A DNA stretch of 64,000 nucleotides from Meiothermus sp. GTDB lineage: Bacteria; Deinococcota; Deinococci; Deinococcales; Thermaceae. The notes beneath the pieces are model-generated. The model did no database searches, had not been told where the DNA came from, and worked only from the letters and a program-made list of their open reading frames with translations. The translations under genes were made by a program, and so were the position numbers. This document shows, one piece after another, positions 7,475 through 53,247 of the stretch. The DNA lies in contig NZ_BPIM01000001.1 of the NCBI RefSeq assembly GCF_026004115.1, positions 1,550,001 through 1,614,000 of the forward strand, read 5' to 3'. Numbering within the stretch: position 1 is the stretch's first letter; every line of letters starts with the position of its first letter.

Positions 7475-7517
7475 TATCCCCAGGGGGTATCGTACACTAA
7501 GACCGCGCTTCTTCCAA
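7475..7517 (-). promoter_or_regulatory. promoter and operator of the CstR/CsoR-like gene
   Basis: On the minus strand, TTGGAA (7512-7517) and TACGAT (7489-7494) are separated by 17 bp. The near-palindrome TATCCCCAGGGGGTAT (7475-7490) covers the expected start point, as for an autoregulated repressor. Confidence 0.6.
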
Positions 7518-7595
7518 CGTTCTCTGCATGCCCGCAGTCCAGGGCCCCAAGCAAAAAAGGTTTTTGCCGACCCATAATCAGCCATGGGCTAAAAG

Positions 7596-8408
7596 CTAGT
7601 CCAACTGTCGCAAAAGCTGCTCGAGCTGGGCCCGGTTTAAGGGGCCCAGGTGACGGGCCACGATCTGCCCATCGGCCCCAATCAGCAAGGTGGTGGGCAG
7701 CCCGCTCACCTGGAAGGCCCGCTGCAAACCTGCACTGTCCAGGAAAACCCGCGCTTCTAGCCCGGTCTGCTGCAAGAAGTCCTGAATGGCGCCTGCGTCT
7801 TCACCTGCGTTCAGGAGCACGATGGGATAGCCCTTCTGCTGGTACTCCACCAGGAGGGGCATCTCGGCCCGGCAGGGAGGGCACCAGGTGGCCCAGAGGT
7901 TCACCAGCATGGGCTTGGGCAGATCTGCAAAGCGTACCTCGCTGGGGCGGGACTGGCCGGCCTCGAGGTACTGTAGTACCTGGCTCCCTAGGGCTGGTTT
8001 GCTGGTTGAGGGGGCCGGACGGGTAAGGCCATACTGCACCCCTAACGGCAACAAGGCCACAGCCAGCGAGGCCGCTCCCGGAACCAGCAGGCGCATTGCT
8101 TCCCGCTTGAGCAAGAAAAGTGCCGCTAAAGCCCCGGCGGGGACGCCCACCCACCAGTTCCAGCCCCCGCTGCGGATGTCCAGGATACCGAGCAGGGCAG
8201 CAAAAGGATCAGGCCAGGTAGATAGGTGTTCCACGGCGTAGCCCACTCGAGCCGCCAGCACCGCAACCAGCAACACCCACCAGGCTTTACCCTCCACCCC
8301 CTGACGCGCGGCCAGCCAGGTAAAAGCAAGAATCCCCAGCAGGAGGGCCAGGTTGGGCCAGCTCAGGGCCAGGGGGCCTAGAAGCAAGGCATCCGGTGTG
8401 AGTCTCAT
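7596..8408 (-). CDS. membrane-anchored TlpA-type thioredoxin with Lgt-like N-terminal domain
   Basis: A 270-residue protein. The first about 140 residues form several membrane helices that resemble part of the Lgt fold (PLALSWPNLALLLGI, ARVGYAVEH, GGWNWWVGVPAGALAALF). After a short linker comes a TlpA/thioredoxin domain with the redox site WATWCPPCRAEMP near residue 180 and the cis-Pro segment GLPTTLLIG. The thioredoxin part should face the outside and reduce or shuttle disulfides, for example for cytochrome c or copper-site assembly. Lipoprotein transferase activity is not claimed. Its start overlaps the stop of a 46-residue gene (ATGA), and both are driven by a promoter with a CstR/CsoR-like operator. 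Confidence 0.8.
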   Translation of the reverse strand: MRLTPDALLLGPLALSWPNLALLLGILAFTWLAARQGVEGKAWWVLLVAVLAARVGYAVEHLSTWPDPFAALLGILDIRSGGWNWWVGVPAGALAALFLLKREAMRLLVPGAASLAVALLPLGVQYGLTRPAPSTSKPALGSQVLQYLEAGQSRPSEVRFADLPKPMLVNLWATWCPPCRAEMPLLVEYQQKGYPIVLLNAGEDAGAIQDFLQQTGLEARVFLDSAGLQRAFQVSGLPTTLLIGADGQIVARHLGPLNRAQLEQLLRQLD

Positions 8409-8545
8409 CGGCTATACACCACCCATCCCAAAAGAAGCACGGCCATCCAGGGCATCAGGTTGCACAGCGAAAGCCTGCGCAAGCGGCAGGACATCCAGCC
8501 GCGCAGGCGATCCGCAAAAGCCTTAGCTGGTTGATGAGTGTTCAT
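8405..8545 (-). CDS. 46-residue single-pass membrane protein with two cysteines
   Basis: A short frame encodes 46 residues: a basic N-terminal part (ADRLRGWMSCRLRRLSLC) followed by one hydrophobic helix (MPWMAVLLLGWVV) and YSR. Its stop overlaps the start of the TlpA/Lgt-like gene in an ATGA junction. Its ATG lies 6 bp behind a perfect -10 box (TATAAT), itself 17 bp after TTGCAT, so the transcript would be leaderless. An operator-like palindrome fills the spacer. The promoter and coupling make it a likely real gene. I do not recognise the family; the Cys residues and company suggest a part in thiol or metal handling. Confidence 0.65.
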   Translation of the reverse strand: MNTHQPAKAFADRLRGWMSCRLRRLSLCNLMPWMAVLLLGWVVYSR

Positions 8546-8551
8546 AATACC

Positions 8552-8580
8552 ATTATACCCCCAGGGGATATAACATGCAA
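8552..8580 (-). promoter_or_regulatory. promoter with CstR/CsoR-like operator in the spacer
   Basis: Minus strand TTGCAT (8575-8580), 17-bp spacer, TATAAT (8552-8557). The palindrome TTATACCCCCAGGGGATATAA covers the spacer and -10, so a bound repressor would block polymerase. Confidence 0.7.
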
Positions 8581-8612
8581 ATAATTTGGCTTTGTCGAGT
8601 CGGAGGTCTTTA

Positions 8613-8633
8613 TATACCCGTACCAGGTATAAA
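8613..8633 (+). promoter_or_regulatory. operator-like palindrome before the secreted unknown protein
   Basis: TATACCCGTACCAGGTATA precedes and overlaps a -10-like TATAAA (8628-8633). It is similar to the other ATACCC/GGGTAT sites. The -35 at the matching distance is poor. Confidence 0.45.
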
Positions 8634-8692: not shown

Positions 8693-8711
8693 AAATACCC
8701 AGTAGGGATAT
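8693..8711 (+). promoter_or_regulatory. second operator-like site before the secreted unknown protein
   Basis: AAATACCCAGTAGGGATAT, a degenerate ATACCC/GGGTAT palindrome, lies 17 bp before the start codon and about 80 bp after the first site. A TTGACA occurs between them at 8662-8667. Confidence 0.4.
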
Positions 8712-8727: not shown

Positions 8728-9372
8728 ATGCGACTAATTGTTTTCTTGATGCTTGTGCTAGGCTTTGTACAAGCCCAACCGCTTACCCTGGGGGAGCAGT
8801 ATTTACTTCGCGGTTACACCGGGAATGCGATGGGCAAAATATGGGCAAGCGCACTGCGTTTTGAGGGGGTTGAGGTGCTCACCAACAGCAGCTCGATCTG
8901 CGCCAGCCTGAGCGGTGCAGCCATCGCTAGCTACCTGGAGGCCCGACCCAACGCGCAGCTAGCCAGCGTGGCCCTCTCCACTCCAGAAGATGCCCTGCGG
9001 TTAGTAAGCTTTCGGCAGCCAGCCCTAGCGCTCATCTTCGGAGGACAGACCGATGCTGCAACCAACAACGCCCTGGTAAAAGGGGTGTTGGCCGAAGCGG
9101 CCCAGCGCAATTACGGTGGGGCTATCTTCATCCACGTGCGCACCTGGGGTCTGGGCTCGGTGGGCCAAGCCGCCAAAGAGGACGCCAGTATCCGCCGCTA
9201 CCTTAGTGCGAAGAATAACCTCTTTGCAGTGCTGGTAGATGGTAACGCAGGTGAGGTGCGGGTAGCGCAGGTCAGGATCAACGCCTCCTCAGGGGACCAG
9301 GAGGTGGCCCAGGTGCTGGGTAGTCAGAAAATGGGAGAAGCCTGGCTGGCCTTATTCCGTCGTTCGTTGTAG
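8728..9372 (+). CDS. secreted protein of unknown function
   Basis: A 214-residue protein with a clear signal peptide (MRLIVFLMLVLGFVQAQ, cleavage near residue 17). I do not recognise the mature part. It alternates strands and helices (PALALIFGGQTDAATNN, GGAIFIHVRTWG, NLFAVLVDG) and has one Cys in SSSICASLSG. A strong ribosome site (CAGGAGGT) precedes the ATG. It stands alone, ends in a strong terminator and is preceded by two operator-like palindromes of the CstR/CsoR type, so it likely belongs to the sulfur or copper response. A periplasmic binding or shielding role is possible but unproven. Confidence 0.75.
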   Translation: MRLIVFLMLVLGFVQAQPLTLGEQYLLRGYTGNAMGKIWASALRFEGVEVLTNSSSICASLSGAAIASYLEARPNAQLASVALSTPEDALRLVSFRQPALALIFGGQTDAATNNALVKGVLAEAAQRNYGGAIFIHVRTWGLGSVGQAAKEDASIRRYLSAKNNLFAVLVDGNAGEVRVAQVRINASSGDQEVAQVLGSQKMGEAWLALFRRSL

Positions 9373-9399: not shown

Positions 9400-9438
9400 A
9401 CGTCACGTCTTTTTATCAGAAAAGACGTGACGTTTTTT
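9400..9438. terminator. bidirectional intrinsic terminator
   Basis: ACGTCACGTCTTTT and AAAAGACGTGACGT form a 14-bp stem with a short loop and T-runs on both sides. It separates the convergent secreted-protein gene and PCu(A)C gene. Confidence 0.9.
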
Positions 9439-9868
9439 AACGCATTTCCACAGTTAGGGTAAAAGTCACCTTAGTCCCATCCTCGAGCCTGAGGGTCAGA
9501 GTTACTTTCTGCCCTTCGGCCAGGGGCTTGGGGTTTTTCTCGCGCAGGCCGTAGAGCATTAAGTGGTAGCCGCCGGGCAGAATCTTGAGGCGGCCCTTGG
9601 CCGGCACGGTCAGGGCGTCCACCCGCCGCATCGCCGACAGGTCGAGGTGCTGGTCGTTACCGGCTTGGGTGGTCTGATGGAATTCCACCCGCGTGGCGAT
9701 GGGGGTGCTGGCCCCCACGATGCGGATCGGCTTATCGGTGGGGTTGTAAAGCACCAGGTAGGCCGCGGTAATGTTGCCCGGCACCCGCCGCACCCAGCCT
9801 TCCTCGAGCCGCAGCGTGGGCTGGGCCAGGGCCAGTCCAGCAAACAAAAGCAAAGATAACCATCGCAT
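9437..9868 (-). CDS. PCu(A)C-type periplasmic copper chaperone
   Basis: A 143-residue protein with a signal peptide (MRWLSLLLFAGLALAQ) and a PCu(A)C cupredoxin-like fold. Copper ligands follow the family pattern: VEFHQTT, then LSAMRRVD, then PGGYHLMLYGL, giving the His/Met set that holds Cu(I). Such proteins deliver copper to CuA of cytochrome oxidase or to nitrous oxide reductase. It is the last gene of a minus-strand run with nosY, nosL, nosF and nosD-type genes, which supports copper insertion into a periplasmic enzyme. Confidence 0.9.
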   Translation of the reverse strand: MRWLSLLLFAGLALAQPTLRLEEGWVRRVPGNITAAYLVLYNPTDKPIRIVGASTPIATRVEFHQTTQAGNDQHLDLSAMRRVDALTVPAKGRLKILPGGYHLMLYGLREKNPKPLAEGQKVTLTLRLEDGTKVTFTLTVEMR

Positions 9869-9883
9869 AAACGTCTCTACAGT

Positions 9884-10636
9884 TTACCGGTCGCGTCGGG
9901 TAAAACGCCAACCCGCGCCGAAAAACCCCATTCCTATCGCCAAGAGACCCACAGCCACCGGTAGAAGCCCCCCTGTGTAGCCTAGAAACTCCTTAAGCAA
10001 GTACCCCGTGGGCCCCACCAGCACCGGGGCTTCCAGCGCATACAGCAGGCCCACCCTAAACATCTCCAGGGGATTCAGCAGCACTGCCGAGAGCAAGAAA
10101 CCTTCCAGCGGATAGTCCCGCAACGCTACCGCCAGCCCGACCACCAGAGGGTCGTAGGCCAGTACCAGCATCCCCCACGCCAGCAAGCCCACCCCCAGTG
10201 CTCGGGCAGGCTCGAGGCCCGCCCCCACCCAGCCCGCCAGGGCTACCCAGACCCACAGAAGGCCCAGCCCACTGAGCATCAGGAGGCTGGCAGCCTTGCT
10301 CCCCAAGCCCAGCAGCCCTGCCGCCAGGGCCAGCCCGGCCAGAATGGGCAGGCTAAAGCCCAGACCCACCCCCAGCACCCCGAAGAGATAGAGCTGTGCT
10401 GGGCTCTGGGGCATCCCGGCCCAGAAGGCCCAGTCTTCCCGCAGGGTCAGCAGGGGTACGCTCAAGGCCAACACAAAAGGCGGCAACAAGAGCGCCAGCG
10501 AGGCAAAAAGCGAGACCACCGCCACCGCCTCGCCCCGGCCCAGGAAGGCCAGGGCCAGCAGGGGCAGCAGTACTACCGGGGCCAGGGCCCAGGGGTTGCG
10601 CAAAAGGGCTTTGGCATACAGGGGCAGGAGGGCCAT
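9884..10636 (-). CDS. NosY-like ABC permease
   Basis: About 250 residues, mostly hydrophobic, with roughly six membrane helices, in the style of the ABC-2/NosY permeases. It starts two bases after the stop of the NosL-like gene (ATG at 10636; a GTG at 10642 would overlap that stop in a GTGA junction). With the NosF-like ATPase and NosD-like protein it would form the membrane machine that, in nitrous-oxide reducers, supports sulfur or copper supply for the NosZ metal site. No NosZ is in the window, so the target here is open. Confidence 0.75.
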   Translation of the reverse strand: MALLPLYAKALLRNPWALAPVVLLPLLALAFLGRGEAVAVVSLFASLALLLPPFVLALSVPLLTLREDWAFWAGMPQSPAQLYLFGVLGVGLGFSLPILAGLALAAGLLGLGSKAASLLMLSGLGLLWVWVALAGWVGAGLEPARALGVGLLAWGMLVLAYDPLVVGLAVALRDYPLEGFLLSAVLLNPLEMFRVGLLYALEAPVLVGPTGYLLKEFLGYTGGLLPVAVGLLAIGMGFFGAGWRFTRRDR

Positions 10637-10638
10637 GG

Positions 10639-11142
10639 TCACCTGCCGTAGCCGGGTACCCAGGCTTGCTTGCGACCCCGCGCGAGGAGCTCGTTCCAGC
10701 GCAGTTTTTCTCCGGCGTGTTGGGGGCGCTCTTTCAGGTAAGCCTCCAGGGCTGTGCTGCTGCTAAAAGCCAGCAAGCCCACCCCCATGGGGGTACGAAT
10801 GCGTTCATTGAACAAAAAATGGGCCTCTTGGGTCGGAATAAAGCGGGCCTCGCGGCGCTCGGAGGTGGCAAAATCGGCCACGTAGAGCTCCTTGGGGGTG
10901 GCCTGGGGGCCGCCGTAACCCAGTAGATGGTCGAGCAGGCAGCCTACGTCGTCGTACTGGTAAACCTTTCCGGTACTGGTCACCATCTGGGCCGCGTAGC
11001 GGGCGTCCAGGATGGTCATGTTGCAGTAGGGGCAGGCATCCACCCCTACCCGCAAGGGCCGGGCTGCGGCCAGCGCGGGTTGCAATAGTCCAAAGCCCAG
11101 GGGCAGGGCCAGCAGTCCTTTGATGATGGTGCGTCGTTGCAT
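10639..11142 (-). CDS. NosL-family copper lipoprotein-like protein (first copy)
   Basis: A 167-residue exported protein with an N-terminal RR-type signal (MQRRTIIKGLLALPLGFGLL). The metal site is CPYCNMTI near residue 42, the NosL copper-binding Cys/Met motif, followed by RYAAQMV and a C-terminal FNERIRTPMG region as in NosL. There is no lipobox Cys in the signal. The ATG at 11142 has GGAG upstream; a longer frame upstream runs through a degenerate repeat and is not needed. NosL gives Cu(I) to apo-NosZ in denitrifiers. Confidence 0.85.
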   Translation of the reverse strand: MQRRTIIKGLLALPLGFGLLQPALAAARPLRVGVDACPYCNMTILDARYAAQMVTSTGKVYQYDDVGCLLDHLLGYGGPQATPKELYVADFATSERREARFIPTQEAHFLFNERIRTPMGVGLLAFSSSTALEAYLKERPQHAGEKLRWNELLARGRKQAWVPGYGR

Positions 11143-11224
11143 AGAGGCTCCTTGTGGTCTCGTGTCAAAGAATTTGGCGCGCAATACAGTCCCCTCGATG
11201 AGCCGCACATTGCAATTTTTGGGA

Positions 11225-11274
11225 CAATCTACGTGCTTCAAAACGTGCCGCAAAACAAGGTATCGGTGCGCCAG
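11225..11274. repeat. short degenerate repeat, copy b
   Basis: Partner of 7086-7135 (about 41 of 50 positions equal). It lies in the 176-bp gap between the two NosL-family genes, where nothing else was recognised. Confidence 0.6.
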
Positions 11275-11318
11275 CAGGGCCGAGGGTATGAACAAGCCCC
11301 CGGCCCAAGCGTCTGGGT

Positions 11319-11984
11319 TTATTTGAGCAGGCCGGCGTGTTTGGCCAGGAGGTTCACCAGGTTCATCTCAGGCAGGGGGGCCAGATCCAGCAGGGTCTGC
11401 CAGTCCAGGATACGGGTGCGGCCTAAGTCGGGGTTTTTGCGGGCAAAGACCTCCGCTTCTACCTTGGAACTGAAGGCGGCAATTTTTGCATCCATCACCA
11501 CCCAGCCGCGCTTCTCACCCCACAGGTAGACGGCCTGGCGGGCGGGCATCAGCCGTACAGCTTCGGGGCCTTTGGCAGGGTCGTAAAGCCCCCGGTCGGC
11601 CACGTAGAAGGTGCTGCCCACCCCGTCGCGCAAGCCGTAGATCCAGGCATAGTTGACCATGCAGGCGATGGACTCGAAGTGAATGGCCTCCATTCCCTTT
11701 TGCGGCTCTTTGAGGGCAATCTGGCTGTAGGTCTGCTCGAAGAAGCCCGGAGTAAAGGTGCGGTTCATCCAGGCCCCGGGGGCCGGGGTCTTGAGGGGCA
11801 TCGAGCAGAAGGCGCAGGTGCCCTGCTCCCAGGGGATAGACTTGGCGGGGATGGTTTCCAGATTGGCCGGGGCGGCGGAGGGGGCTTGCATCTGCTGCAT
11901 ATGCTGGGCCAGGGCCTGCGAAAGCGCAGTCGAAGCGCCTAAAGCCGAAAGCATCTTGATCACTTCACGACGGTTCTTGTACAT
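11319..11984 (-). CDS. NosL-family protein (second, divergent copy)
   Basis: A 221-residue exported protein with a twin-Arg-type N-terminus (NRREVIKMLSALGASTALS). A Met-rich stretch (QHMQQMQ) follows, then the metal motif CAFCSMPL near residue 58 and a NosL-like C-terminal part (ARQAVYLWGEKRGWVVMDAKIAAF). It is longer than the first copy and differs in the metal loop. Its start overlaps the end of the NosF-like gene by 20 bp, so translation is probably coupled. Two NosL-type chaperones in one operon suggests two copper sites or two partners. Confidence 0.8.
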   Translation of the reverse strand: MYKNRREVIKMLSALGASTALSQALAQHMQQMQAPSAAPANLETIPAKSIPWEQGTCAFCSMPLKTPAPGAWMNRTFTPGFFEQTYSQIALKEPQKGMEAIHFESIACMVNYAWIYGLRDGVGSTFYVADRGLYDPAKGPEAVRLMPARQAVYLWGEKRGWVVMDAKIAAFSSKVEAEVFARKNPDLGRTRILDWQTLLDLAPLPEMNLVNLLAKHAGLLK

Positions 11985-12603
11985 GGTTCACACTGCCTTG
12001 TTCTACTACCCGGCCGTTTTCCAGGCGGATAAACCGCTCGGCCAGGCGCGAAATTTCTTCTTGCCGGTGAGCCGACAAAATAACCAGTCCACCCATGGTC
12101 AGGTGGGCCGAGAGCCAGTCCTGCAAGCGGTTTAGGCCTTCGGTATCCAGGGCCGCGGCTGGTTCGTCCAGAAGCCAGAGCGGCGGGTAACCCATGAGCC
12201 CGGCCGCCAGGGCCAGCCGCTGCCGCCAGCCGCCCGAGAGCTGGGCTACGGGGCGCTTGTAGTGGGCCTGTAAGCCCATGCGCTCCAGGGCCTCGTCCTT
12301 GTCTGCCGAACCTGCACCCTTGAGCCGTCGGGCTGCTTCCAGTACCTCTTCTACCCGCAGGGTAGCGGGAAAGGTCAGGTGCTGGGGGATATAAGCGCGG
12401 CCTCGAGCCGCCCCCAGACTGCGGGGGTCGTGTCCGAAGAGCCGCACCAGGCCGCCATCGGGCTTTAGCCGCCCGGCCAGCAGGCCCAAAAGGGTGCTTT
12501 TCCCGGCCCCGTTGGGGCCCAGCAGGGCCAGGCTGCCCGCCTCCAGGCGAAGACTCACCCCTTCCAGGCGGCCTTTTTTGCGCAGGTCTACGACCTCAAC
12601 CAT
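11965..12603 (-). CDS. NosF-like ABC transporter ATPase
   Basis: A 212-residue single nucleotide-binding domain: Walker A GPNGAGKST near residue 33, Q-loop IPQHLTF, signature LSGGWRQRLALA, Walker B LWLLDEPAAALD and the H-loop in SAHRQEE. Position between nosD- and nosL/nosY-type genes identifies it as NosF-like. It would energise the NosY-like permease. It overlaps the 5' end of the NosL copy downstream and the 3' end of nosD upstream. Confidence 0.88.
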   Translation of the reverse strand: MVEVVDLRKKGRLEGVSLRLEAGSLALLGPNGAGKSTLLGLLAGRLKPDGGLVRLFGHDPRSLGAARGRAYIPQHLTFPATLRVEEVLEAARRLKGAGSADKDEALERMGLQAHYKRPVAQLSGGWRQRLALAAGLMGYPPLWLLDEPAAALDTEGLNRLQDWLSAHLTMGGLVILSAHRQEEISRLAERFIRLENGRVVEQGSVNHVQEPS

Positions 12604-13784
12604 AACCCTCCCAGCAGGCTCAAAAAGGCCAGCCCCACAAAGCCGGGCGCTATGCCCGCGGTGGGCCGCGCGGCGGGCCGGGCTTCCGAATCGGCCAGGG
12701 ACAGCATCCGCAGCCCCGGCACCCGGGCCTCGGCGGTCTCCCAGAGCACTACCCCCGGTGAGAGGGCCAAAAGGCTCAGGTCGGGTTGGCGCGCACTGAG
12801 CAGCGCAAAGCTGCTGCTAGGCAGGTGGGGGATGGGCAGGGGATAGGCCCGATCGAAGGCGTTGCCCCGCAGGCGTACCCTGGCTCTAGGGTCGTCGACC
12901 GCCAGGTCGTGCAGGTTGCCCATAAAAGTGTTGCTGGTAGCGAAGAGGGTGTTCTGGTCGGTGTCGCGGGCGAAGAGCAAGGCGGTGCCGTTGTTCTCAA
13001 AGCGATTGCCCTCGAGGCGGGTGTCCCTCGAGTCCAGCGACAAAAGCCCAACAGTACTCTGCACGAAGCGATTGTTTTTCAGTACAGTTTTCCATTCCTC
13101 TTGCAACAAAAGCCCGTAGCGCAGAGGCCCTACTTCCTGGGCGAAGGTGTTGTCTTCCACCCGGTTTTCGGCCCCGTGCATGAGGGCCGAGCCTACCCGG
13201 TTGCGCTGGCTGTGGTTGCCCCTCACCTGGGCCTGGTAGGTAAACATCAGGTGCAGGCCGTAGCGTTCGCTCGCCTCGACCCGGTTACCCTCCACCACCA
13301 CCCGCTCACCGTACTCCACGTAGAGGTTGTCCAGGAATCCGCTGATGCGGTTGTTCAGGAGCACCACGTTGTCGCTGCGATAGGTCTGTAGGCCGGGGGC
13401 TACCCCGGTGCCCGAGATTGTGGAGCTTTCGACCCTTGCCCCATTAGATTGCTCAATCCGGATACCCCCGGTAACACCCTCTGCCCGCAGGCCCCGCACC
13501 ATACAGCCCGCGCACTTGTAGAGCACCAGGGCTGCATCGGGCTCGTAGAAGTCGTCGCCGGGGCCTACGCCCCGCACCTCGAGGCCCTCCACCACAATCC
13601 CGGGGGCCGATAGCAGAAGCCCGCTGCCCCTGCCGCCCGCATCCAGCACCGCCCCCGGGCGGGCCACCAGGCGCACCCCCGGGGTGCTAATCTCCCAGGG
13701 ACCACGGTAAACACCCGCCTCCAGCACCACGGTCTGGCCCGGGAGCAAAGGGGGAGGGGGAGCAGGGGGATGCAGTATCAGCAT
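12588..13784 (-). CDS. NosD-like right-handed beta-helix protein
   Basis: A 398-residue protein of repeated beta-helix coils, with NosD-type turns such as GNRVEASERYGLHLMFTYQ, NRVGSALMHG and NNRISGFLDNLYVEYG. NosD proteins are periplasmic partners of NosFY in maturing nitrous oxide reductase. The N-terminus lacks an obvious signal peptide from this ATG, although export is expected, so the true start may lie further upstream or use another codon. A hydrophobic segment at the C-terminus (GFVGLAFLSLLGGLWL) may anchor it. It overlaps nosF by 16 bp. Confidence 0.85.
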   Translation of the reverse strand: MLILHPPAPPPPLLPGQTVVLEAGVYRGPWEISTPGVRLVARPGAVLDAGGRGSGLLLSAPGIVVEGLEVRGVGPGDDFYEPDAALVLYKCAGCMVRGLRAEGVTGGIRIEQSNGARVESSTISGTGVAPGLQTYRSDNVVLLNNRISGFLDNLYVEYGERVVVEGNRVEASERYGLHLMFTYQAQVRGNHSQRNRVGSALMHGAENRVEDNTFAQEVGPLRYGLLLQEEWKTVLKNNRFVQSTVGLLSLDSRDTRLEGNRFENNGTALLFARDTDQNTLFATSNTFMGNLHDLAVDDPRARVRLRGNAFDRAYPLPIPHLPSSSFALLSARQPDLSLLALSPGVVLWETAEARVPGLRMLSLADSEARPAARPTAGIAPGFVGLAFLSLLGGLWLRS

Positions 13785-13990
13785 GATTCAGCCAGGCGAC
13801 AGGCTGTGCCTGCCAGACGGAGAGCAAACTTATGGTGGTTACGCAGTACCAGCAGCGAGGCTTCGCCACAACGGCTACACAGCCGCTCGTGCAGGGCGGC
13901 GTGCTCGCTAAACCGGCAGGGGCGGCCCCCGGTTAAGCAGAGGGAAAGCCGGGCGCAGGTGGGGCCTGGGGGCCTCGAGCGGCTCCGGCC
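13778..13990 (-). other. open frame with a CxxC ribbon, start unclear
   Basis: A 70-codon minus-strand frame runs into the NosD-like start and contains CSRCGEASLLVLRNHHK, which looks like half of a zinc or copper ribbon, plus several other Cys. It has no ATG/GTG/TTG in a sensible place and overlaps the end of the DUF2946-like gene in another frame. It may be a real small gene with a CTG start, the true C-terminus of the neighbour after a frameshift, or chance. Confidence 0.3.
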
Positions 13991-14285
13991 TTACACCTGC
14001 TTGCGGCACTGGCCGCGGCACTGAAACGATGGGCAGAGCCCCGTCACTAAAGCCGCCGATGATGCACAGGGGGCAGTGGGGCTGGTGGGTATGGGTGGGG
14101 GTAGGGGTGGGTTGGGTGTGGGAAGCCCCCCCCTGGAAAGTGCAAATAAATGCGTCCGGCAGGAAACCCACCGGGAGTACCTGTGTGCGGGGGTCGCGCA
14201 AGGCGTACTGGCTCGAGACCACCAGCACCAGCCCCACCAGGAAGGAAATCCAGAGCGGGTGGCGGGCTTGGGCTGCAGCAGGCAT
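13908..14285 (-). CDS. DUF2946-like exported copper-associated protein
   Basis: A 125-residue protein with one N-terminal membrane helix (LWISFLVGLVLVVSSQYAL), a Thr/Pro/His-rich linker and the motif HTHQPHCPLCII near residue 67. The HxxxCPLC pattern after such a linker is what DUF2946 proteins, often near copper genes, show. It is the first gene of the minus-strand nos-type copper operon. The ATG lies 11 bp behind a perfect TATAAT, with an operator-like palindrome just upstream. Function is inferred from context; the C-terminal third is unlike other members that I recall. Confidence 0.6.
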   Translation of the reverse strand: MPAAAQARHPLWISFLVGLVLVVSSQYALRDPRTQVLPVGFLPDAFICTFQGGASHTQPTPTPTHTHQPHCPLCIIGGFSDGALPIVSVPRPVPQAGVRPEPLEAPRPHLRPAFPLLNRGPPLPV

Positions 14286-14303: not shown

Positions 14304-14325
14304 CTACCCCCCCTATAGGGGCAAA
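14304..14325 (-). promoter_or_regulatory. operator-like palindrome at the nos-type operon promoter
   Basis: CTACCCCCCCTATAGGGGCAAA sits between a TTGCCC-like -35 and a perfect TATAAT (14297-14302) on the minus strand. It resembles CsoR-type sites (TACCCC...GGGGTA). Confidence 0.65.
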
Positions 14326-14334: not shown

Positions 14335-14363
14335 TCGCATATCCCCCAGGGGTATGTTATACT
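14335..14363 (+). promoter_or_regulatory. trxB promoter with operator-like palindrome
   Basis: TCGCAT (14335-14340), a 17-bp spacer and TATACT (14358-14363). ATATCCCCCAGGGGTAT (14339-14355) fills the spacer, as at other promoters of the proposed CstR/CsoR regulon. Confidence 0.65.
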
Positions 14364-43165: not shown

Positions 43166-43192
43166 CTATAAGCCTCCTTCTTTTATCCTGTT

Positions 43193-44899: not shown

Positions 44900-44954
44900 A
44901 GCGCCTCCTTTCCCAGGCCCAGGTGTTCGCCGGGGAGCGATGAGATTCGAGAAG

Positions 44955-45533: not shown

Positions 45534-45542
45534 AAGACCTCC

Positions 45543-46334
45543 CTAGCGTATGAAACCGGGCAGATCCATCCGCGCCCCGTTGGCCTGCACGTTCATGAAG
45601 AGGGTCAGGGCGATGATGGGTTCGGAGTAGAAGTCGGGCGCAGGCATGCTCAGGTTGCTGTAGCAAGCCCGGATGCGGTCGGCCATGGTCCAGGCCTGGT
45701 CGTTGGAGTAACGGAAGGCCGGCCAGTGGCTAACTGCGCGCTTATCCTTGAGGATGTCGGAATAGGGGAGAACGCCGGCCCGCTTGCCCACATAGGTGAC
45801 GTGGCAGGTCGCGCAGCCCATGTCACGCGGGCCGGCCCGCAGGTAGAAAAGCCGCTCCCCTAGCTCGTAGAGCTTCTTTTCCTGGGGCATTAGGGTTCGC
45901 ACCGTCACCGGCTGCTCGTTGGAAAGGGAGGCCAGGTAAAAGGCAATCGCCACCACCTCGCTGCGCTTAATTTCCTGCGGCTGGAAGCCCTGCAGCCGGA
46001 TCATGCAGGTGCGGATGCGCGAGTCGAGGTCTTCCACCCGGCGGGTGTCGAAGAAGTAGCGGGGCAGCCGCCCCACCACACCTTCAAGTTTCCCCGGCCC
46101 CCGGCCAAAATCGCAGGCCTCGAGGCTCACCTGCTTGGGTCCACGCTTGGCCTTGAACAGTTGTTCGCCCTGTTCAACGTACAGGTCGCTGGGCAGAATA
46201 CCCCCGCTCTGCTCGAGGAGTTGCTTCTTTTGCTTTTCGGCCTCCTTGACCGGATCGTCTTCTTCCTGGGCCAACACAAACAGGCTGAAGAGGGCCAGAA
46301 CTGCCGCCCCTACCAAACGCCAGAAGCGACCCAT
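45543..46334 (-). CDS. soxA: SoxA, copy 2
   Basis: A 263-residue exported cytochrome akin to copy 1: haem motif CATCHVTY near residue 178, ligand Cys in RIRACYSNLSM near 225, and the Cys pair in LEACDFG and IRTCMIR. The signal peptide is FWRLVGAAVLALFSLFVLAQ. The ATG at 46334 has GGAGGT upstream; an in-frame GTG two codons earlier is less likely. Sequence differences to copy 1 near the active site suggest different preferences for the sulfur substrate or the SoxYZ form. Confidence 0.92.
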   Translation of the reverse strand: MGRFWRLVGAAVLALFSLFVLAQEEDDPVKEAEKQKKQLLEQSGGILPSDLYVEQGEQLFKAKRGPKQVSLEACDFGRGPGKLEGVVGRLPRYFFDTRRVEDLDSRIRTCMIRLQGFQPQEIKRSEVVAIAFYLASLSNEQPVTVRTLMPQEKKLYELGERLFYLRAGPRDMGCATCHVTYVGKRAGVLPYSDILKDKRAVSHWPAFRYSNDQAWTMADRIRACYSNLSMPAPDFYSEPIIALTLFMNVQANGARMDLPGFIR

Positions 46335-46343
46335 CGGCACCTC

Positions 46344-46670
46344 CTAAGCCAGCGTCAGGTCTGCGGTCTTTTCACCGGTTTGGCCGTTGAGGTCTTTGCA
46401 GGTGACCTTGAGCTGGCCCGCCTTGGTGGCCTTCATCTTGAAGGCAAACAGCGGGTTGGCGCTGGTGCCGGGGCCCGGCTTGACCTGGGCAATAACCTGG
46501 TTGTCCATCAGCACGTTGACCTCGTTGATGTAATCGGCAGGAATTTGCTTGCCGCTGGCGTCCCGGCGGGTACCGGGTTCCATGGGGTGCTGAACCACAA
46601 TCTGTACGCGAACCTCGTCGCCGGCTTTAGGTTTGGCCGGGTTGAAACGAACCAAAATGTTAATCGCCAT
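46344..46670 (-). CDS. soxZ: SoxZ
   Basis: A 108-residue beta-sandwich partner of SoxY. The N-terminus ILVRFNPAKPKAGDEVRVQIVVQHPME and the block LMDNQVIAQVKPGPGTSANP are SoxZ-like. It has no signal of its own and would be exported with SoxY through the Tat path. The ATG at 46670 has AAGGAGGC upstream. Ten bases separate it from soxA copy 2. Confidence 0.95.
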   Translation of the reverse strand: MAINILVRFNPAKPKAGDEVRVQIVVQHPMEPGTRRDASGKQIPADYINEVNVLMDNQVIAQVKPGPGTSANPLFAFKMKATKAGQLKVTCKDLNGQTGEKTADLTLA

Positions 46671-46681
46671 CGCATGCCTCC

Positions 46682-47152
46682 TTAACCGCAACCGCCTACC
46701 GTGACCCGCACCGACTGCGAAGCCATCAGGAACTTACCGTCTTTGGTCTCGACCACTGCCCGAACCGGGGCCGTTTCGGCCACCCGCACACGGGTTGCGT
46801 AGTAGGGCAAGACCCCGTTCAGCACGACGGTGAAGAGCAGGGGATTGGCGTTCTTATCGCTGAAGCAGTGAATGGCCTTGACCTGATCGGCCGGCAGGCT
46901 GGCCTCAATTTCTACCGGTACGTTCGCGCCCGACTCGGCGATGGTAGGGGCAACCAACTTAACCTGCTGCGAAGGGGTTAGATCTTTAAAGCCCTTACCC
47001 AACACCTGCTGCAAGCCTTTCTCGAGGTTGGCGACGTCTTCGCCCTCGAGGCCCCCCTGGGCCAGCGCCGAAGTCAGTTGGTTGGCCAACATGCTTCCGG
47101 CGACCGCACCGGCCGACGCTTTTAAAAATGTCCTTCTATCCACAACCTTCAC
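46682..47152 (-). CDS. soxY: SoxY, sulfur carrier
   Basis: A 156-residue protein with a Tat signal (VDRRTFLKASAGAVAGSML) and, at its very end, the swinging-arm motif VTVGGCG. The terminal Cys carries the thiosulfate sulfur while Sox enzymes act on it. The last residue lacks one of the usual two Gly after Cys. SoxY and SoxZ overlap little and are 11 bp apart; soxW overlaps its start by 17 bp. Confidence 0.95.
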   Translation of the reverse strand: MKVVDRRTFLKASAGAVAGSMLANQLTSALAQGGLEGEDVANLEKGLQQVLGKGFKDLTPSQQVKLVAPTIAESGANVPVEIEASLPADQVKAIHCFSDKNANPLLFTVVLNGVLPYYATRVRVAETAPVRAVVETKDGKFLMASQSVRVTVGGCG

Positions 47153-47570
47153 CTCCTACTTTCGCACAGATCTGCCGAAGTTCGCTCAGAAACTGCGCAC
47201 GGGTGCGGCTACCGAATAGCCGGCCCGCCTCTTTCCACGTACCCCCCTGGGGTACGAAGAAGACAAAACTAGGGGTACCCAAAGCCCGCATTTGCGTGCT
47301 GAGGGCGCGTCCCTCTGGGCTCTGGCTGTCCACGCTGGCCACCACAAAACGCTGGCGCAGAGTTTTAGAGACAGCCTCGTCGGAGAGCACAAAAGTATTC
47401 ATTTGATCGCAATACGGGCAGGCATGGCTCCAAAAGTAGACCATTAAAATGCGCCCGTGCGACTGGGCATACTGGCTGGCCTGGCCATAGGGATACCAGC
47501 GGTCAAAGTCCACTTCCTGGGCGCTGACCATAAGTAAAGATCCAACCAGTACCAAAAGCATGTAACGCAT
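47136..47570 (-). CDS. soxW: SoxW-like thioredoxin
   Basis: A 144-residue exported thioredoxin-fold protein with signal peptide MRYMLLVLVGSLLMVSAQ and redox site SHACPYCDQMNTFV near residue 52. Such SoxW/SoxS proteins re-reduce SoxY after mixed disulfides. The C-terminus GGEGCG mimics the SoxY arm, an odd feature that may only be chance. First gene of the 13-kb sox operon; its promoter has an operator-like palindrome in the spacer. CcdA at the operon end is a likely electron source. Confidence 0.85.
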   Translation of the reverse strand: MRYMLLVLVGSLLMVSAQEVDFDRWYPYGQASQYAQSHGRILMVYFWSHACPYCDQMNTFVLSDEAVSKTLRQRFVVASVDSQSPEGRALSTQMRALGTPSFVFFVPQGGTWKEAGRLFGSRTRAQFLSELRQICAKVGGEGCG

Positions 47571-47596: not shown

Positions 47597-47625
47597 TTAG
47601 TACTACCTGGGGGTATGAATGTCAA
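47597..47625 (-). promoter_or_regulatory. sox operon promoter with operator
   Basis: Minus strand TTGACA (47620-47625), 17-bp spacer, TACTAA (47597-47602). ATACCCCCAGGTA (47604-47616) sits in the spacer and matches the CstR/CsoR-like sites. Confidence 0.75.
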
Positions 47626-47991: not shown

Positions 47992-48010
47992 AAATACCCG
48001 CTATAGGTAT
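47992..48010 (+). promoter_or_regulatory. operator-like palindrome before the TlpA-like gene
   Basis: AAATACCCGCTATAGGTAT lies 20 bp before the start codon. A TTGTCT/TATTTA pair with 16-bp spacer upstream (from about 47955) would place the site at the transcription start. Confidence 0.5.
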
Positions 48011-48030: not shown

Positions 48031-48510
48031 ATGAACCGTTGGTTGGCAATCTTGGCTTTGCTCGCAATTGTTCTGGCAGCCTCGCCGGGACAGATGGCCC
48101 CGGACTTTCGCTTGCGCGATGCGTCGGGGAAGGCATACTCCCTGGCCAGCTTCAAGGGCCGGCCGGTGGTGATTACTTTTTGGGCCAGCTGGTGCCCTGT
48201 CTGCCGGGCTGAGTTTCCCAAACTGCACCAGCTTGCCCAGGAATACAAGGTGCCCTTTGTGGTGATCAGCCGCGAGCCGCGCGACACCGAACAGGTGGTG
48301 CGGGACTACATGAAAAACTACCCCCGCTTCCTTCCGCTATTGGCCCAGCCTGGGGGGGATAACCCGGTGGCCGTTGCCAACCGCTACAAGGTACTGGGCC
48401 AGCCCTGGACTTTTGTTTTGGATGGCGAGGGAAAAATCGTCAACCTGTATGCCGGCAAGGTGGAGGTGGAGTCCCTCAAGGATGACCTGGCCTTGGCCGG
48501 GTACGAGTGA
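48031..48510 (+). CDS. TlpA-like exported thioredoxin
   Basis: A 159-residue protein with a signal peptide (WLAILALLAIVLAAS) and a TlpA/ResA fold; FWASWCPVCRAEFP near residue 53 is the redox site, and the cis-Pro lies in LGQPWTFVL. It reads away from soxW, across a region with operators on both sides. Probable tasks: thiol reduction of cytochrome c apoproteins, SoxY or copper proteins outside the membrane. Confidence 0.87.
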   Translation: MNRWLAILALLAIVLAASPGQMAPDFRLRDASGKAYSLASFKGRPVVITFWASWCPVCRAEFPKLHQLAQEYKVPFVVISREPRDTEQVVRDYMKNYPRFLPLLAQPGGDNPVAVANRYKVLGQPWTFVLDGEGKIVNLYAGKVEVESLKDDLALAGYE

Positions 48511-49230: not shown

Positions 49231-49995
49231 CTACCCGTGCAGCACTCTGGGCAGGTTCTGCCAGAGAATAAAGACCCCCATCACCACCAGAAACCCGGCA
49301 AAGCCGCGTCGCAGGGTTAGCTGGGGGATGGATGCGGCCACGCGTCCTCCAAACAGGCTACCCGCAATGCCAAGTGCTGCGAAGATCAGCACAACGTCCC
49401 AGTGAACCGTGTAGCCCTGCGCCGGCAGCAGGTGCAAGTACTTGTAGAAGCCACTGGCCGACTTCATAGCGACAATCAGCAGGCTGGTGCCCACCGCCAG
49501 GTGCATGGGGAGACCGCCCAGCAAGACCAGGGCGGGCACTATCAGAAAACCGCCCCCCACGCCCACCAGGCCGGTCAGTACCCCCACGGCCAGGCCATCC
49601 AGAACAATCTTGATAAAAGAGCGCTTCTTGGGGGTGGCCTCGAGTCGGGGCGGGCGGAACATCATGTAAGCCGCCAGCAGCATCACCACCGCAAACAGCC
49701 CCAGTTGCCAGACCCCTGGCACCCACTGGGAAAAATAGGCCCCCAGGTAGGTTCCGGCCATACCGGGCAGGCCAAAAAACAGCACGTTGCGCCAGTCAAT
49801 CAGGCCCCTGAGGGCATAGGGCAGGGCCCCTACCAGGGCAATCAGGCCCACGATGGCCAGGGACTCGGCGATGGCCAGCTTGTCGGGTTCGCCTACCAGG
49901 TAGACCAGGATGGGCACCGTCAGGATGGAACCCCCCGATCCCAGCATGCCCAGAGCCAGGCCAATCAGAATGGCGCCCATCCAGGCTAGGAGCAT
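49231..49995 (-). CDS. TauE/SafE-family sulfur-anion exporter
   Basis: A 254-residue membrane protein with about eight helices in two halves, each beginning with a Gly-rich motif (GLALGMLGSGGSILTVP; GLVGVGGGFLIVPALVLL). Members next to cst genes export sulfite or related sulfur anions. It starts within the 3' end of a rhodanese gene (10-bp overlap) and has AGGAGG before the ATG. It is the last gene of the sqr-cstB-rhodanese series, as tauE belongs to the cst operon of staphylococci. Confidence 0.87.
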   Translation of the reverse strand: MLLAWMGAILIGLALGMLGSGGSILTVPILVYLVGEPDKLAIAESLAIVGLIALVGALPYALRGLIDWRNVLFFGLPGMAGTYLGAYFSQWVPGVWQLGLFAVVMLLAAYMMFRPPRLEATPKKRSFIKIVLDGLAVGVLTGLVGVGGGFLIVPALVLLGGLPMHLAVGTSLLIVAMKSASGFYKYLHLLPAQGYTVHWDVVLIFAALGIAGSLFGGRVAASIPQLTLRRGFAGFLVVMGVFILWQNLPRVLHG

Positions 49996-50351
49996 GGGGC
50001 CTCCTCGGGCTTGAACGGGGCCTCAACCGCTCTTTGGCTTGGGGTAGGGGAAGTAGAGCGCTCGAGCCGGTATCCCTGGGCTGCATACCCCTGGATACCA
50101 CTCACCAGCTTGCCTACCTCAAAACCCTCGTATTCCAACACCTCCGCCGCCAGCCCAGCCCGGCTGCCGGTAGCACAGATGGTCACGAGGGGGCTTTTGA
50201 GGGGGCTGAGATCATCCAAAAGGCGCTCCAGAGGCAGGTTGAGTGAGCCAGGAATGTGCCCGCTGGCGTACTCTTCCGGCGAGCGCACGTCCAGCAGCAG
50301 GGCGCCTTTCTTTTGCCAGAGAGAAAGCTCGTTGGGGAATACGTCGTGCAT
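49986..50351 (-). CDS. rhodanese-domain protein (single)
   Basis: A 121-residue cytoplasmic rhodanese with active Cys in LVTICATGSRAGLA near residue 60; the loop is CATGSR. Its ATG overlaps the previous gene's stop (TGATG at 50351). A Pro/Glu-rich tail of about 20 residues ends in CS. Moves sulfane sulfur between low-molecular or protein thiols. Confidence 0.85.
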   Translation of the reverse strand: MHDVFPNELSLWQKKGALLLDVRSPEEYASGHIPGSLNLPLERLLDDLSPLKSPLVTICATGSRAGLAAEVLEYEGFEVGKLVSGIQGYAAQGYRLERSTSPTPSQRAVEAPFKPEEAPCS

Positions 50352-50692
50352 CACTTCACCGGTAGCTTGTGCCGCTTCCAGGCCTCGAGGCCGCCCACCA
50401 GGTTGTAGACCTGGAAGCCTTTTCCGGCCAGAAAGCGGGCCGCGCTGGCGCTGCGGCTTCCGCTTCGGCACTGGCAGATAATCTCTTTGTTCCTGGGCAG
50501 TTTCTCCCACTCGAGGGCCAGCTTGTCCAGCGGCAGGCCTTGTGAGCCAGGGATTTTGCCCTCCTGGCGCTCCAAGGGGGTACGCACATCCAGGATGAGG
50601 GCCCCCGCTTTGGCCTTTTCGTAGGCCTCTACCGGGCCAAGGCGGCCCACTGCGGCCCCGCCGCCCAACAGGTTTTTGAGCCAGCCGATCAA
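50351..50692 (-). CDS. rhodanese-domain protein (single)
   Basis: A 113-residue protein with a short amphipathic start (MIGWLKNLLGGG) and a rhodanese domain with active Cys in EIICQCRSGSRSASAA near residue 75, where the second Cys of CQC aligns with the catalytic one. It begins at TTG overlapping the stop of the tandem rhodanese gene (TTGA). Part of a chain of five overlapping or adjoining sulfurtransferase genes. Confidence 0.85.
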   Translation of the reverse strand: MIGWLKNLLGGGAAVGRLGPVEAYEKAKAGALILDVRTPLERQEGKIPGSQGLPLDKLALEWEKLPRNKEIICQCRSGSRSASAARFLAGKGFQVYNLVGGLEAWKRHKLPVK

Positions 50693-51351
50693 CGCTCCAC
50701 CTCAAACCCGGCGCTCATCCAGCCGTAGGTACCGCCTTCCAGGTTGCCCACCTTCTCCTTGGCGAAGCCGTGCCCCACCAGGTACTCCGAGGCCTGGGAC
50801 GAACGCCCCCCCGAGGCGCAGACCACGACCAGCTTGCGGTCTTTGGGCAGCTTGCCCACCTCTGCAGTAAAGCGCCCCAGGGGAATGTTCACAGCGCCAG
50901 GTACGTGCCCCATGGCGTACTCGTAGGGTTCGCGCACATCTACCACATACGCACCCTCCTGAATCCACTGCTGGGCCTCGTGGGGGGTCAGCTCGGTGAA
51001 GGCGGTGTCGTGGTAGGTTGCTTCCAGGGGCTCTGTATCCAGCGGCAGCCCGGCCTGGTACCAGGCCATGATGCCCCCATCCAGGTTCAGCAGGTTGCTG
51101 TACCCCTTTGCCGAGAGCCAGCCTGCCGCCTGGCCGCTGCGGTTGCCGCTGCGGCAGTAGAGCACCACCGGTTGATCTTTGGGAATCTCCGAGAAGCGCC
51201 CGGCGAACTCGGACAGCGGAATCAGCCGGGCGCCTTCGATGCGCACCTGGGCATACTCCTCGGGTTCACGCACATCCACGAAGAGAACGTTTTGCTCTTG
51301 CAGCTTACGGGCTTCGGCGGCGCTGATGTCTTTGTATGGAACGGTGAGCAT
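50689..51351 (-). CDS. tandem rhodanese (two active domains)
   Basis: A 220-residue cytoplasmic protein with two rhodanese domains of about 100 residues each. Both have a catalytic Cys: VVLYCRSGNRSGQAA near residue 71 and LVVVCASGGRSSQAS near 181. In most two-domain rhodaneses the first domain is inactive, so two intact sites is notable. The ATG at 51351 follows GGGAGGAAAA. It neighbours the CstB-like gene and likely relays persulfide. Confidence 0.87.
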   Translation of the reverse strand: MLTVPYKDISAAEARKLQEQNVLFVDVREPEEYAQVRIEGARLIPLSEFAGRFSEIPKDQPVVLYCRSGNRSGQAAGWLSAKGYSNLLNLDGGIMAWYQAGLPLDTEPLEATYHDTAFTELTPHEAQQWIQEGAYVVDVREPYEYAMGHVPGAVNIPLGRFTAEVGKLPKDRKLVVVCASGGRSSQASEYLVGHGFAKEKVGNLEGGTYGWMSAGFEVER

Positions 51352-51362
51352 GGTTTTCCTCC

Positions 51363-51671
51363 CTAGACGGGGCTTGCGCAGGGGATGCCGGCTTCGCACC
51401 AGGCCTTGATACCCCCCTCGAGGTGCCAGACCTTTTTGTGGCCCAGGTTTTGTAGTGTTTTGAGCGCTTCTTGTGAGCGGTTGCCGCTGCGGCAGTAGAG
51501 CAACACCGGCTGGTCGTGCCCCAGGTACAAAGGGGCCAGGGCCTCGAGCCGGGACAGCGGCAGGCGCAGGGCCCCCGGCAGGAGGCCGCTGGCCCATTCT
51601 TCGGGTTCGCGGATGTCCACCACTTGAAAGCGCTCCAGGGTTTGATAGGCAGTTTTGACGCTCAGGTTCAT
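51363..51671 (-). CDS. rhodanese-domain protein (single)
   Basis: A 102-residue rhodanese with the active loop LLYCRSGNRSQEAL near residue 60. Another Cys pair lies close to the C-terminus (KAWCEAGIPCASPV). It is the first of the four small rhodanese genes after cstB (66-bp gap) and precedes the tandem rhodanese by 11 bp. Confidence 0.86.
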   Translation of the reverse strand: MNLSVKTAYQTLERFQVVDIREPEEWASGLLPGALRLPLSRLEALAPLYLGHDQPVLLYCRSGNRSQEALKTLQNLGHKKVWHLEGGIKAWCEAGIPCASPV

Positions 51672-51737
51672 ATTCTTGGTTTCGTGGGGGAGCCCCCAGC
51701 CAGAGCCAGGGGCTCGTTTGTAGGGTTCAGTCCTGTA

Positions 51738-53180
51738 CTAGGCCTCCACCAGCTCGCGGGCCGGGCCTTTCTCTACCGGGAAGCCTTCCTGCTGCCAGGC
51801 CCGGATGCCACCGGTGAGGTTGATCAGGTTGCTGAAGCCTGCCGAGAGCAGGGCGCTGATGGCGGTGGAGGAGCGGTCGCCGCCCAGGCAGTGCACCACC
51901 ACCGGCTTGTCCTTGGGAATGCGGTTCAGGTTGTTCATCACCCGTCCGGCGTGGATATTCAGAGCGCCGGGGATATGGCCGGCTTGGTACTCGTCGGCCC
52001 CGCGCACGTCCAGGATGGCTGCCTCGCCTTTTTCCCACAGGGCTTTGGCCTGGGCCGCGGTGATCTGCGGCACGGTCTCGAGCTCGCCCTGCACGTAGCC
52101 CTCGAGGCTGGGAATATAGCCCACCACCCGGTCCAGCCCGATACGGATGAGCTGCTTGACCAGCTCGGGCACCCGCTCGGGGCCGGCCAGCAGAATCAGG
52201 TCACGGTCGTAGGGCAGCAGCCAGCCGGCCCAGGTCGAGAAGCTCTTGCCCGCCGGGATGTTGATGGCCCCTTTGAGGTGCCCCCCGGCGAAGGCCAGCT
52301 TGTCGCGGGTGTCTACCAGCAAAGCGCCTTCGGACAGCTTTTGCTGGAACTGCTCTAAGGTGAAGAGGTGTGGCTCTTTGAGGTCGCCCAGAATGGGCAT
52401 GCCGTCGCGGTTGAGCCGCTTCATCTGGGCGAAGTAGTAAGGGGCCTCGGGCTGGCCGGACAGCAGCGCCTTGACAAAGCCTTCCTCGTCATTGTTGCGC
52501 AGGTAATCGGCCCACCAGGCAAAGCGGCGCTCATAGCCCACGGTGGTGCTGGCGACGGCCCCCAGGCCCTTGCCGCAGGCGCTACCGGCCCCGTGGCCGG
52601 GCCAGACCTGCACGTAGTCGGGCAGGGTGAGGAACTTTTCCTTGAGGCTCTTGAACATGCGGCGTGCGCCGGGCTCGGCAGTGCCCATGATGCCCGCGGC
52701 CTCTTCCAGCAGGTCGGGGCGGCCAATATCGCCCACAAACACAAAGTCGCCGGTCAGGAAGAAGCCGGGTTCTGTGGCAGCAGCCCCATCTTGCACCAGG
52801 AAGCTGATGTGCTCGGGGGTGTGGCCGGGGGTGTGTACCACGGTAAGGGTGATGTTGCCCAGCTTGATCTGGTCGCCATCTTTCACGAGCTGGTAGTCGA
52901 AGCCCTCGAGGCCCTTGTACTTCCAGTTTTCGTCGCCTTCGTCGCTCAAGTAGAGCTTGGCCCCGGTGGCCCTGGCCAGCTCGCGGGCTCCCGAAAGGTA
53001 GTCGGCGTGGATGTGGGTCTCAGTTACGGCCACAATTCGCATCCCGTTCTTCTGGGCTTCGTCCAGGTACACCTGGATATCGCGCCGGGGGTCGACCACC
53101 ACCGCAGTACCGGCCGACTGACAACCGATAAAGTAGCTACCCTGTGCTAGTCCTTCCTCGTAGATTTGCTTGAAAAGCAT
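51738..53180 (-). CDS. CstB-like persulfide dioxygenase-rhodanese fusion
   Basis: A 480-residue cytoplasmic protein in three parts. Residues 1-240 are an ETHE1-type metallo-beta-lactamase with iron ligands in THIHADYLSG, VVHTPGHTPEH, LTGDFVFVGDIGRPD and VWPGHGAGSACG. Residues about 265-360 are a rhodanese fold whose active loop reads LILLAGPERV, with no Cys. Residues about 375-475 are an active rhodanese (VVHCLGGDRSS). This PDO/pseudo-rhodanese/rhodanese order is that of CstB, which oxidises persulfides to sulfite or thiosulfate. Its promoter carries two operator-like sites. Confidence 0.9.
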   Translation of the reverse strand: MLFKQIYEEGLAQGSYFIGCQSAGTAVVVDPRRDIQVYLDEAQKNGMRIVAVTETHIHADYLSGARELARATGAKLYLSDEGDENWKYKGLEGFDYQLVKDGDQIKLGNITLTVVHTPGHTPEHISFLVQDGAAATEPGFFLTGDFVFVGDIGRPDLLEEAAGIMGTAEPGARRMFKSLKEKFLTLPDYVQVWPGHGAGSACGKGLGAVASTTVGYERRFAWWADYLRNNDEEGFVKALLSGQPEAPYYFAQMKRLNRDGMPILGDLKEPHLFTLEQFQQKLSEGALLVDTRDKLAFAGGHLKGAINIPAGKSFSTWAGWLLPYDRDLILLAGPERVPELVKQLIRIGLDRVVGYIPSLEGYVQGELETVPQITAAQAKALWEKGEAAILDVRGADEYQAGHIPGALNIHAGRVMNNLNRIPKDKPVVVHCLGGDRSSTAISALLSAGFSNLINLTGGIRAWQQEGFPVEKGPARELVEA

Positions 53181-53202
53181 GTACGAACCTCCTGGCTCGT
53201 AG

Positions 53203-53247
53203 AATATATCCCTGGGGGGTATTTTGTCAAATACCCCCCCATGATAT
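53203..53247 (-). promoter_or_regulatory. cstB promoter with two operator-like palindromes
   Basis: Minus strand TTGACA (53225-53230), 16-bp spacer, TATATT (53203-53208). Palindrome 1 (53205-53222, TATCCCTGGGGGGTAT core) fills the spacer; palindrome 2 (53229-53247, ATACCCCCCCATGATAT core) lies upstream of or over the -35. Confidence 0.75.

Follow-up and report, generated by a model that had tools for sequence, protein, structure and literature searches.

A predicted CsoR/CstR-type operator box at sulfur and thiol gene promoters of Meiothermus and its relatives

Introduction

Cys-pair CsoR-family repressors of sulfur genes are already known, as is control of sox genes by this family. CstR of Staphylococcus aureus was judged to control one operon directly, cst (PMC5480029), and the CstR-like repressor YrkD of Bacillus licheniformis has a sulfur-oxidation cluster under its control (PMC9918477). 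In Thermus thermophilus HB8, TTHA1953 represses the soxW operon and its divergent gene, and oxidation of its thiols lowers DNA binding (PMC10318464). TtCsoR (TTHA1719; operator quoted in PMC10318464) belongs to the same protein family but sits in a copZ-csoR-copA operon and has a different operator. Here we analyze a 64,000-nucleotide stretch of the chromosome of a Meiothermus sp., a hot-spring bacterium (the window, G000:C1:1550001-1614000 of a 3.35-Mb genome), in which a 15-bp palindromic box recurs ahead of sulfur and thiol genes and which encodes a Cys-pair CsoR-family protein, regulator A.

Like TTHA1953, regulator A is a CsoR-family protein with two Cys 29 residues apart. It is a different paralog, however, and TTHA1953 is the counterpart of another protein of this genome, C. 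CstR and YrkD are Cys-pair sensors of sulfane sulfur controlling rhodanese, persulfide dioxygenase and SQR-type genes (PMC5480029, PMC9918477), and genes of this kind carry the box here. Unlike the CstR case, boxes also stand at sox, trxB and tlpA, so that more target genes are implicated, and several paralogs occur in one genome. We propose, with a probability of about two in three, that the boxes are operators of Cys-pair, CstR-like repressors that would release DNA when their thiols are persulfidated or oxidized.

Results

The original prediction named ten palindromes of the type ATACCC-n-GGGTAT. Nine of them share a common 15-bp register, TAYCC-N5-GGRTA, with at most one mismatch (the box rows of Table 1); the C/G palindrome at 14304-14325, the tenth, has a different arrangement. 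TAC flanking this tenth palindrome is present in two of 14 Meiothermus trxB upstream regions, one of them the window's own. As a literal motif the earlier description did not stand: ATACCC-N4-GGGTAT with up to two mismatches matches none of the named sites, and TACCC-N(3-7)-GGGTA was likewise rejected because it misses sites. The box consensus, TAYCCCCNGGGGRTA, has TA at both ends of the 15 bp and mostly extra A/T outside.

Five 15-mers in the window score 13-14 of 14 against this consensus, compared with a mean of 0.07 and a maximum of 1 in 60 dinucleotide shuffles. Four of the five are promoter sites, and the fifth (47240) lies within soxW. The remaining five in-register sites have consensus scores of only 12, 11, 11, 10 and 9, and the background is higher at 11 or above (25 15-mers observed, 13.3 expected). 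When a leave-one-out matrix was used, eight of the nine sites beat every non-site position in the window. The shared register, the excess over shuffles and the conservation described below support the reading of these boxes as candidate CsoR/CstR-type operators.

The intragenic soxW match (47240-47254) is a near-perfect box in coding sequence; one relative (L204) also has a similar match within its soxW. It is probably due to chance or coding constraint.

Promoter position was scored as the match to -35 and -10 elements out of 12, where 9 or more is reached with P = 0.006 among 3000 window positions drawn at random and not matched for A/T. Scores of at least 9 were obtained at 8556 (minus strand), 14304 (nos side), soxW, cstB (53207) and the operon of paralog B outside the window. 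The trxB promoter scores 8 (P = 0.05), and 7475, 8615, 8696, 47995 and 53232 score 7; by this scoring a good -35/-10 match is absent at regulator A, tlpA and the 8728 gene. The box lies inside the -35/-10 spacer at cstB, soxW, the 7596-8408 gene and the B operon. Of the five spacer cases put forward earlier, four hold well (score ≥9), but trxB is weak.

To compare relatives, boxes at cstB, trxB and soxW were scored with class-held-out matrices and 300 shuffles per promoter, at p ≤ 0.01, in 30 loci each out of the genomes with a match (49 for cstB, 46 for trxB and 45 for sox). The Thermus-side set holds 28 genomes (27 g4, one g5), the genus name being inferred from, among other features, the shared family and Cys39 and Cys68 as in TTHA1953. 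The cstB box passed in all 22 non-Thermus loci and in 7 of 8 Thermus-side loci, where promoters such as those of L253 and L255 have TTGACA, box and TATACT in succession. For trxB the figures were 16/19 and 11/11, and for soxW 15/20 and 1/10, with 8 of the 10 Thermus-side soxW loci passing at p ≤ 0.05. Five of those ten have a fitting 15-mer at -22 to -25, outside the promoter spacer, whereas the Meiothermus soxW box is mostly within it.

Further genes showed the same pattern. Of the 15 soxW loci that have a tlpA match, 12 carry a box scoring at least 13, with the sox sites held out, no more than 45 bp from tlpA. Held-out matrices also placed a box (score >12) within 450 bp of the regulator A start in 16 of 17 A-clade loci, a box at the B operon in 13 of 17 loci, and a box of at least 17 at the SQR-like gene in 6 of 9; these three counts carry no shuffle control and include some genomes twice, and the last covers nine of ten genomes with a match, G020 being left out for its split match. 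These data bear out the expectation that the boxes extend to more genes than the S. aureus cst operon, with conservation at cstB, trxB and tlpA and, less strictly, at soxW. The pair of sites ahead of the secreted protein (8728) found no such support: in a tblastn search over the fetched loci, as distinct from whole genomes, that gene had matches in own-genome loci only. In other phyla, a box lies within 150 bp before a CsoR-family match in 12 of 50 loci (23 matches in 766,324 bases overall).

The genome scan with a site matrix that had been suggested yielded at least three box places beyond the window. A degenerate pattern gave 52 strand matches in the own genome against 23 for its reversed control, palindromic sites counting twice. 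A profile built from 11 sites, nine in the window and two outside, recovered at E ≤ 10 at least 11 distinct places, namely ten training sites and one new one, C1:1061278; the soxW training site was not recovered among the 150 of 977 first-look candidates that this search scored. The family search used stricter filters and a shortened list, and neither search was exhaustive. The first outside site is flanked on one side by a rhodanese gene and on the other by an operon encoding a protein disulfide oxidoreductase (TIGR02187, above cutoff), a rhodanese and paralog B (C1:1288188). The second is 45 bp ahead of an SQR-like gene (C1:3001436), whose top NCBIfam match is a type III SQR model (130.7 bits, below its cutoff). 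In 27 other own-genome loci (75,823 bases, mostly centered on weak pattern matches) there were no matches of 17 or more, the best being 16.9.

The new place, C1:1061278-1061300 (L012, about 1501-1515), is a strong box ahead of a short open reading frame. By eye, the product resembles a 39-residue single-span membrane protein.

Regulator A is a CsoR/RcnR (DUF156) family member (Trns_repr_metal domain, 80.3 bits, cutoff 22.8), with Meiothermus hypogaeus (98%) and others of the genus as its close named relatives. It carries Cys41 and Cys70 with Tyr66 at the His position, and its sole His is His9, which confirms the predicted Cys pair without a His ligand. Two conserved Cys with the copper-site His gone is the CstR-like persulfide-sensor pattern, and the predicted operators at cst-type genes (cstB, rhodanese, TauE, SQR) fit that assignment. 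The copper-CsoR pattern, Cys-His-Cys or Cys-His-His together with a cop-operon operator, differs from A in having His where A has Tyr.

Five CsoR-family genes, A to E, are present in the genome, and three of them (A, B and C) encode Cys-pair proteins. Their fingerprints are C-Y-C for A and B (in all A and B rows compared except two with C-F-C), C-F-C for C (C1:1220285), F-Y-W without Cys for D, and C-H-H for E (C1:814718). In a tree of 91 distinct rows and few columns, with one Bacteroidota row mislabelled C, C and D group with Thermus-side proteins (100/99), A and B with Trueperaceae rows (95/89), and E forms its own clade (100/100). A and B are not cleanly separated there, and we rely only on the A/B versus C/D split and the E clade. 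Eight Thermus-side rows (four distinct) are in the tree, the others being judged by identity. No A/B-type regulator was found in the 28 Thermus-side genomes: A has 43-47% identity to its best match in 27, and one genome of 65% completeness has no match. The Thermus-side rows carry Cys39 and Cys68 as TTHA1953 does, so that TTHA1953 corresponds to C rather than to A, which falls outside the TTHA1953-type clade.

In four genomes an A-like regulator precedes cstB in the same orientation, at a distance of 225 bp, an arrangement hinting that the pair was transferred together. Near-identical A-like regulators (L047, L048, L049; G003, G007, G017, G021) occur in records named Meiothermus and Calidithermus.

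The original prediction had made the 7189-7470 protein the reader of the motif. Its role as sole reader is not supported, given three Cys-pair paralogs and the persistence of boxes at trxB and cstB in G008, G010 and G015, genomes without A. The trxB box therefore does not need A to be maintained. Moreover, Thermus-side genomes lack the A/B clade yet have trxB and cstB boxes, which suggests that different paralogs may read one box. On the simplest view, C would read it in the Thermus-side genomes.

The gene labels given earlier hold (Table 1). The soxW label is by analogy with TTHA1422 and the CstB label of 51738-53180 rests on domains, CstB being an MBL-rhodanese fusion. SLAC1 proteins, such as the one encoded after trxB, can export sulfite. 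The nos-like operon (14285 to 9437) runs divergently from trxB and may share the 14340 box.

Table 1. Features of the window, with positions counted from its first nucleotide
Feature	Position	Strand	Evidence
CsoR-family regulator A, 93 residues, Cys41/Tyr66/Cys70	7189..7470	-	Pfam PF02583, 80.3 bits; fingerprint; tree
Box TATCCCCAGGGGGTA, 4 bp upstream of regulator A ATG	7475..7489	.	Consensus and leave-one-out scores; comparative
TlpA/Lgt-like thioredoxin-fold membrane protein	7596..8408	-	ResA/DsbE-type and weak Lgt NCBIfam matches, all below cutoff
Box TACCCCCAGGGGATA, promoter side of 7596-8408 gene	8556..8570	.	Promoter score 10/12; present in L042, L043, L044
Operator-like box ahead of 8728-9372, without comparative support	8615..8629	.	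Matrix score
Operator-like box ahead of 8728-9372, without comparative support	8696..8710	.	Matrix score
Protein outside known families (secreted unknown of the original prediction)	8728..9372	+	0 Pfam/NCBIfam matches
Nos-like copper cluster: PCuAC, two NosL-like, ABC ATPase, NosD, two unassigned; putative operon	9437..14285	-	Domain matches
C/G palindrome in nos-side promoter, out of 15-bp register	14304..14325	.	
Box TATCCCCCAGGGGTA between trxB and nos-like operon	14340..14354	.	Matrix; conservation
trxB, thioredoxin reductase	14410..15348	+	TIGR01292 above cutoff
SLAC1 anion-channel gene, after trxB	starts 15357		PF03595
Paralog D, CsoR-family without Cys, within sox supercluster; action on boxes conjectural	34141..34437	-	PF02583, 65.2 bits; F-Y-W fingerprint
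Putative sox operon: thioredoxin-like soxW (47136-47570), SoxY, SoxA-like, SoxB, SoxA	41800..47570	-	
Weak box ahead of soxW, in TTGACA...-10 spacer	47601..47615	.	
Box TACCCGCTATAGGTA ahead of tlpA	47995..48009	.	Matrix
tlpA, ResA/TlpA-like thiol-disulfide protein	48031..48510	+	
Putative cst-type operon: MBL-rhodanese protein 51738-53180, two rhodaneses, TauE	49231..53180	-	
Box within cstB promoter spacer	53207..53221	.	Promoter score 11/12; conservation; matrix
Second box upstream of cstB	53232..53246	.	Conservation; matrix
SQR-like flavoprotein upstream of cstB	53248..54522	-	NF049943, E 3.5e-67, below its cutoff

Discussion

In the model that we favor, a reduced repressor oligomer would sit on TAYCC-N5-GGRTA, between -35 and -10 at several promoters, and would block RNA polymerase, presumably by occlusion. 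The repressed set would comprise the cst operon, the soxW operon, tlpA genes, trxB with the SLAC1 gene, the remote SQR-like gene, the rhodanese/protein-disulfide-oxidoreductase operon and the regulator's own gene. Rising persulfides or polysulfides would cross-link Cys41 and Cys70, and the repressor would leave the DNA. Sulfide oxidation, persulfide handling, thiosulfate oxidation and thioredoxin-dependent reduction would then be switched on jointly.

Several observations weigh against this model. In G003, G006 and G012 trxB lacks its box, and in 4 of 17 loci no box was seen at the B operon. Of the nine sites, that at soxW (47601) is the weakest: its leave-one-out score is 13.1, four non-site positions beat it, and it fails p ≤ 0.01 in its own genome (p = 0.02). 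It also fails in G006, G008, G011 and G015, and in these four it is degenerate. Several of the box-preceded CsoR genes in other phyla encode His-containing (C-H-C) copper types, which indicates a family-wide operator, so that the box alone tells nothing of the ligand. Finally, a genomic site containing a four-C tract was not bound by TTHA1953 when tested, and NaHS did not release the protein (PMC10318464); the four-C-tract result argues against C reading C-rich boxes.

A different division of targets is possible, although we place it well below even odds. Regulators A and B may act only at cst, rhodanese and regulator promoters, with sox and tlpA belonging to C, the TTHA1953 ortholog, and the matrix fit there being fortuitous. 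The grouping of C with TTHA1953-type proteins, apart from A and B, and the weakness of the soxW box favor this division. In addition, the TTHA1953 consensus is given as TAC-N2-TAC-N4-GTA-N2-GTA, 20 bp without C tracts, in PMC10318464. In our reading of the letters, it holds two 15-bp TAC-N9-GTA frames shifted by 5, a basic length that agrees with the box. In both G037 and G049, a one-mismatch match to it is found 43 bp ahead of cstB. However, the consensus is at chance level in the window (8 matches at ≤3 mismatches, 5.6 expected). At ≤1 mismatch, 50 genomes together gave 33 matches to the forward consensus and 21 to its reversed control; the 28 Thermus-side genomes gave 12 and 3, and the own genome 0 and 2. 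The C-rich box and its spacer position are also kept at soxW in most Meiothermus loci read.

It is very improbable that the boxes are copper-CsoR operators, with thiol genes attached to a copper response. The box before C-H-C copper-type genes in other phyla and the nos-like copper cluster in the trxB intergenic region are compatible with that idea, and copper control had been part of the original prediction. However, the copper-type paralog E has its own copZ-csoR-copA operon 69 bp behind CCCCACCCAGGGAGGGGTGGGG (L028:4268-4289), a C/G palindrome much resembling the TtCsoR operator (as quoted in PMC10318464), and the 8-kb region around E contains no 15-bp box. TtCsoR finds its counterpart in E, regulator A has no His ligand, and the conserved targets are sulfur and thiol genes. 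The least probable reading takes the recurring boxes for a side effect of promoter composition, C/G-rich spacers flanked by A/T-rich elements: although the outer TAT often coincides with a -10 element and the plain consensus score is not outstanding for five of nine sites, the shuffle controls, the near-invariant boxes across genera, the two boxes at cstB and the lack of comparable scores in the other own-genome loci speak against it.

How does the favored model, in which CstR-like repressors occupy the boxes, relate to what has been published? Control of sox by this motif had been predicted as new; the soxW box is present, but repression of sox by the CsoR-family protein TTHA1953 in Thermus was published in 2023 (PMC10318464). 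The accessible portions of that paper do not name trxB or cstB as TTHA1953 targets, and both have boxes here. We found no account of family-wide conservation of a CstR-type box at trxB, or of paralogs sharing a box, in the accessible portions of the literature searched. The trxB link therefore looks new and is the freshest part of this work. If the model is true, a persulfide-type sensor goes beyond guarding a detoxification operon and also sets thiosulfate-oxidation and thioredoxin-reductase levels, which would couple the energy use of sulfur to persulfide reduction. It would also offer a test case for labor division by paralogous repressors with one box, here perhaps the three Cys-pair paralogs.

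A broader version of the model is doubtful. One TAC-N9-GTA-type box might be common to the long-separated Cys-pair clades A/B and C across Thermaceae and join sulfide, thiosulfate and thioredoxin-reductase genes in one sulfane-sulfur regulon, with the Cys-less D serving at these boxes as a competitor or brake that does not sense sulfur.

Two further observations concern the D locus. A weak box ahead of the DsrE gene at 34004 was rejected as a candidate, being seen in 1 of 11 loci around D and its relatives (in the closest relative; these loci end about 200 bp past D). Paralog D has F-Y-W at the sensing positions, with L-Y-W in one genome. Eleven Meiothermus genomes give a clear match to D, in each case on the soxW contig and at 11.4-12.8 kb from that gene; a divergent D in G008 is 11.5 kb away.

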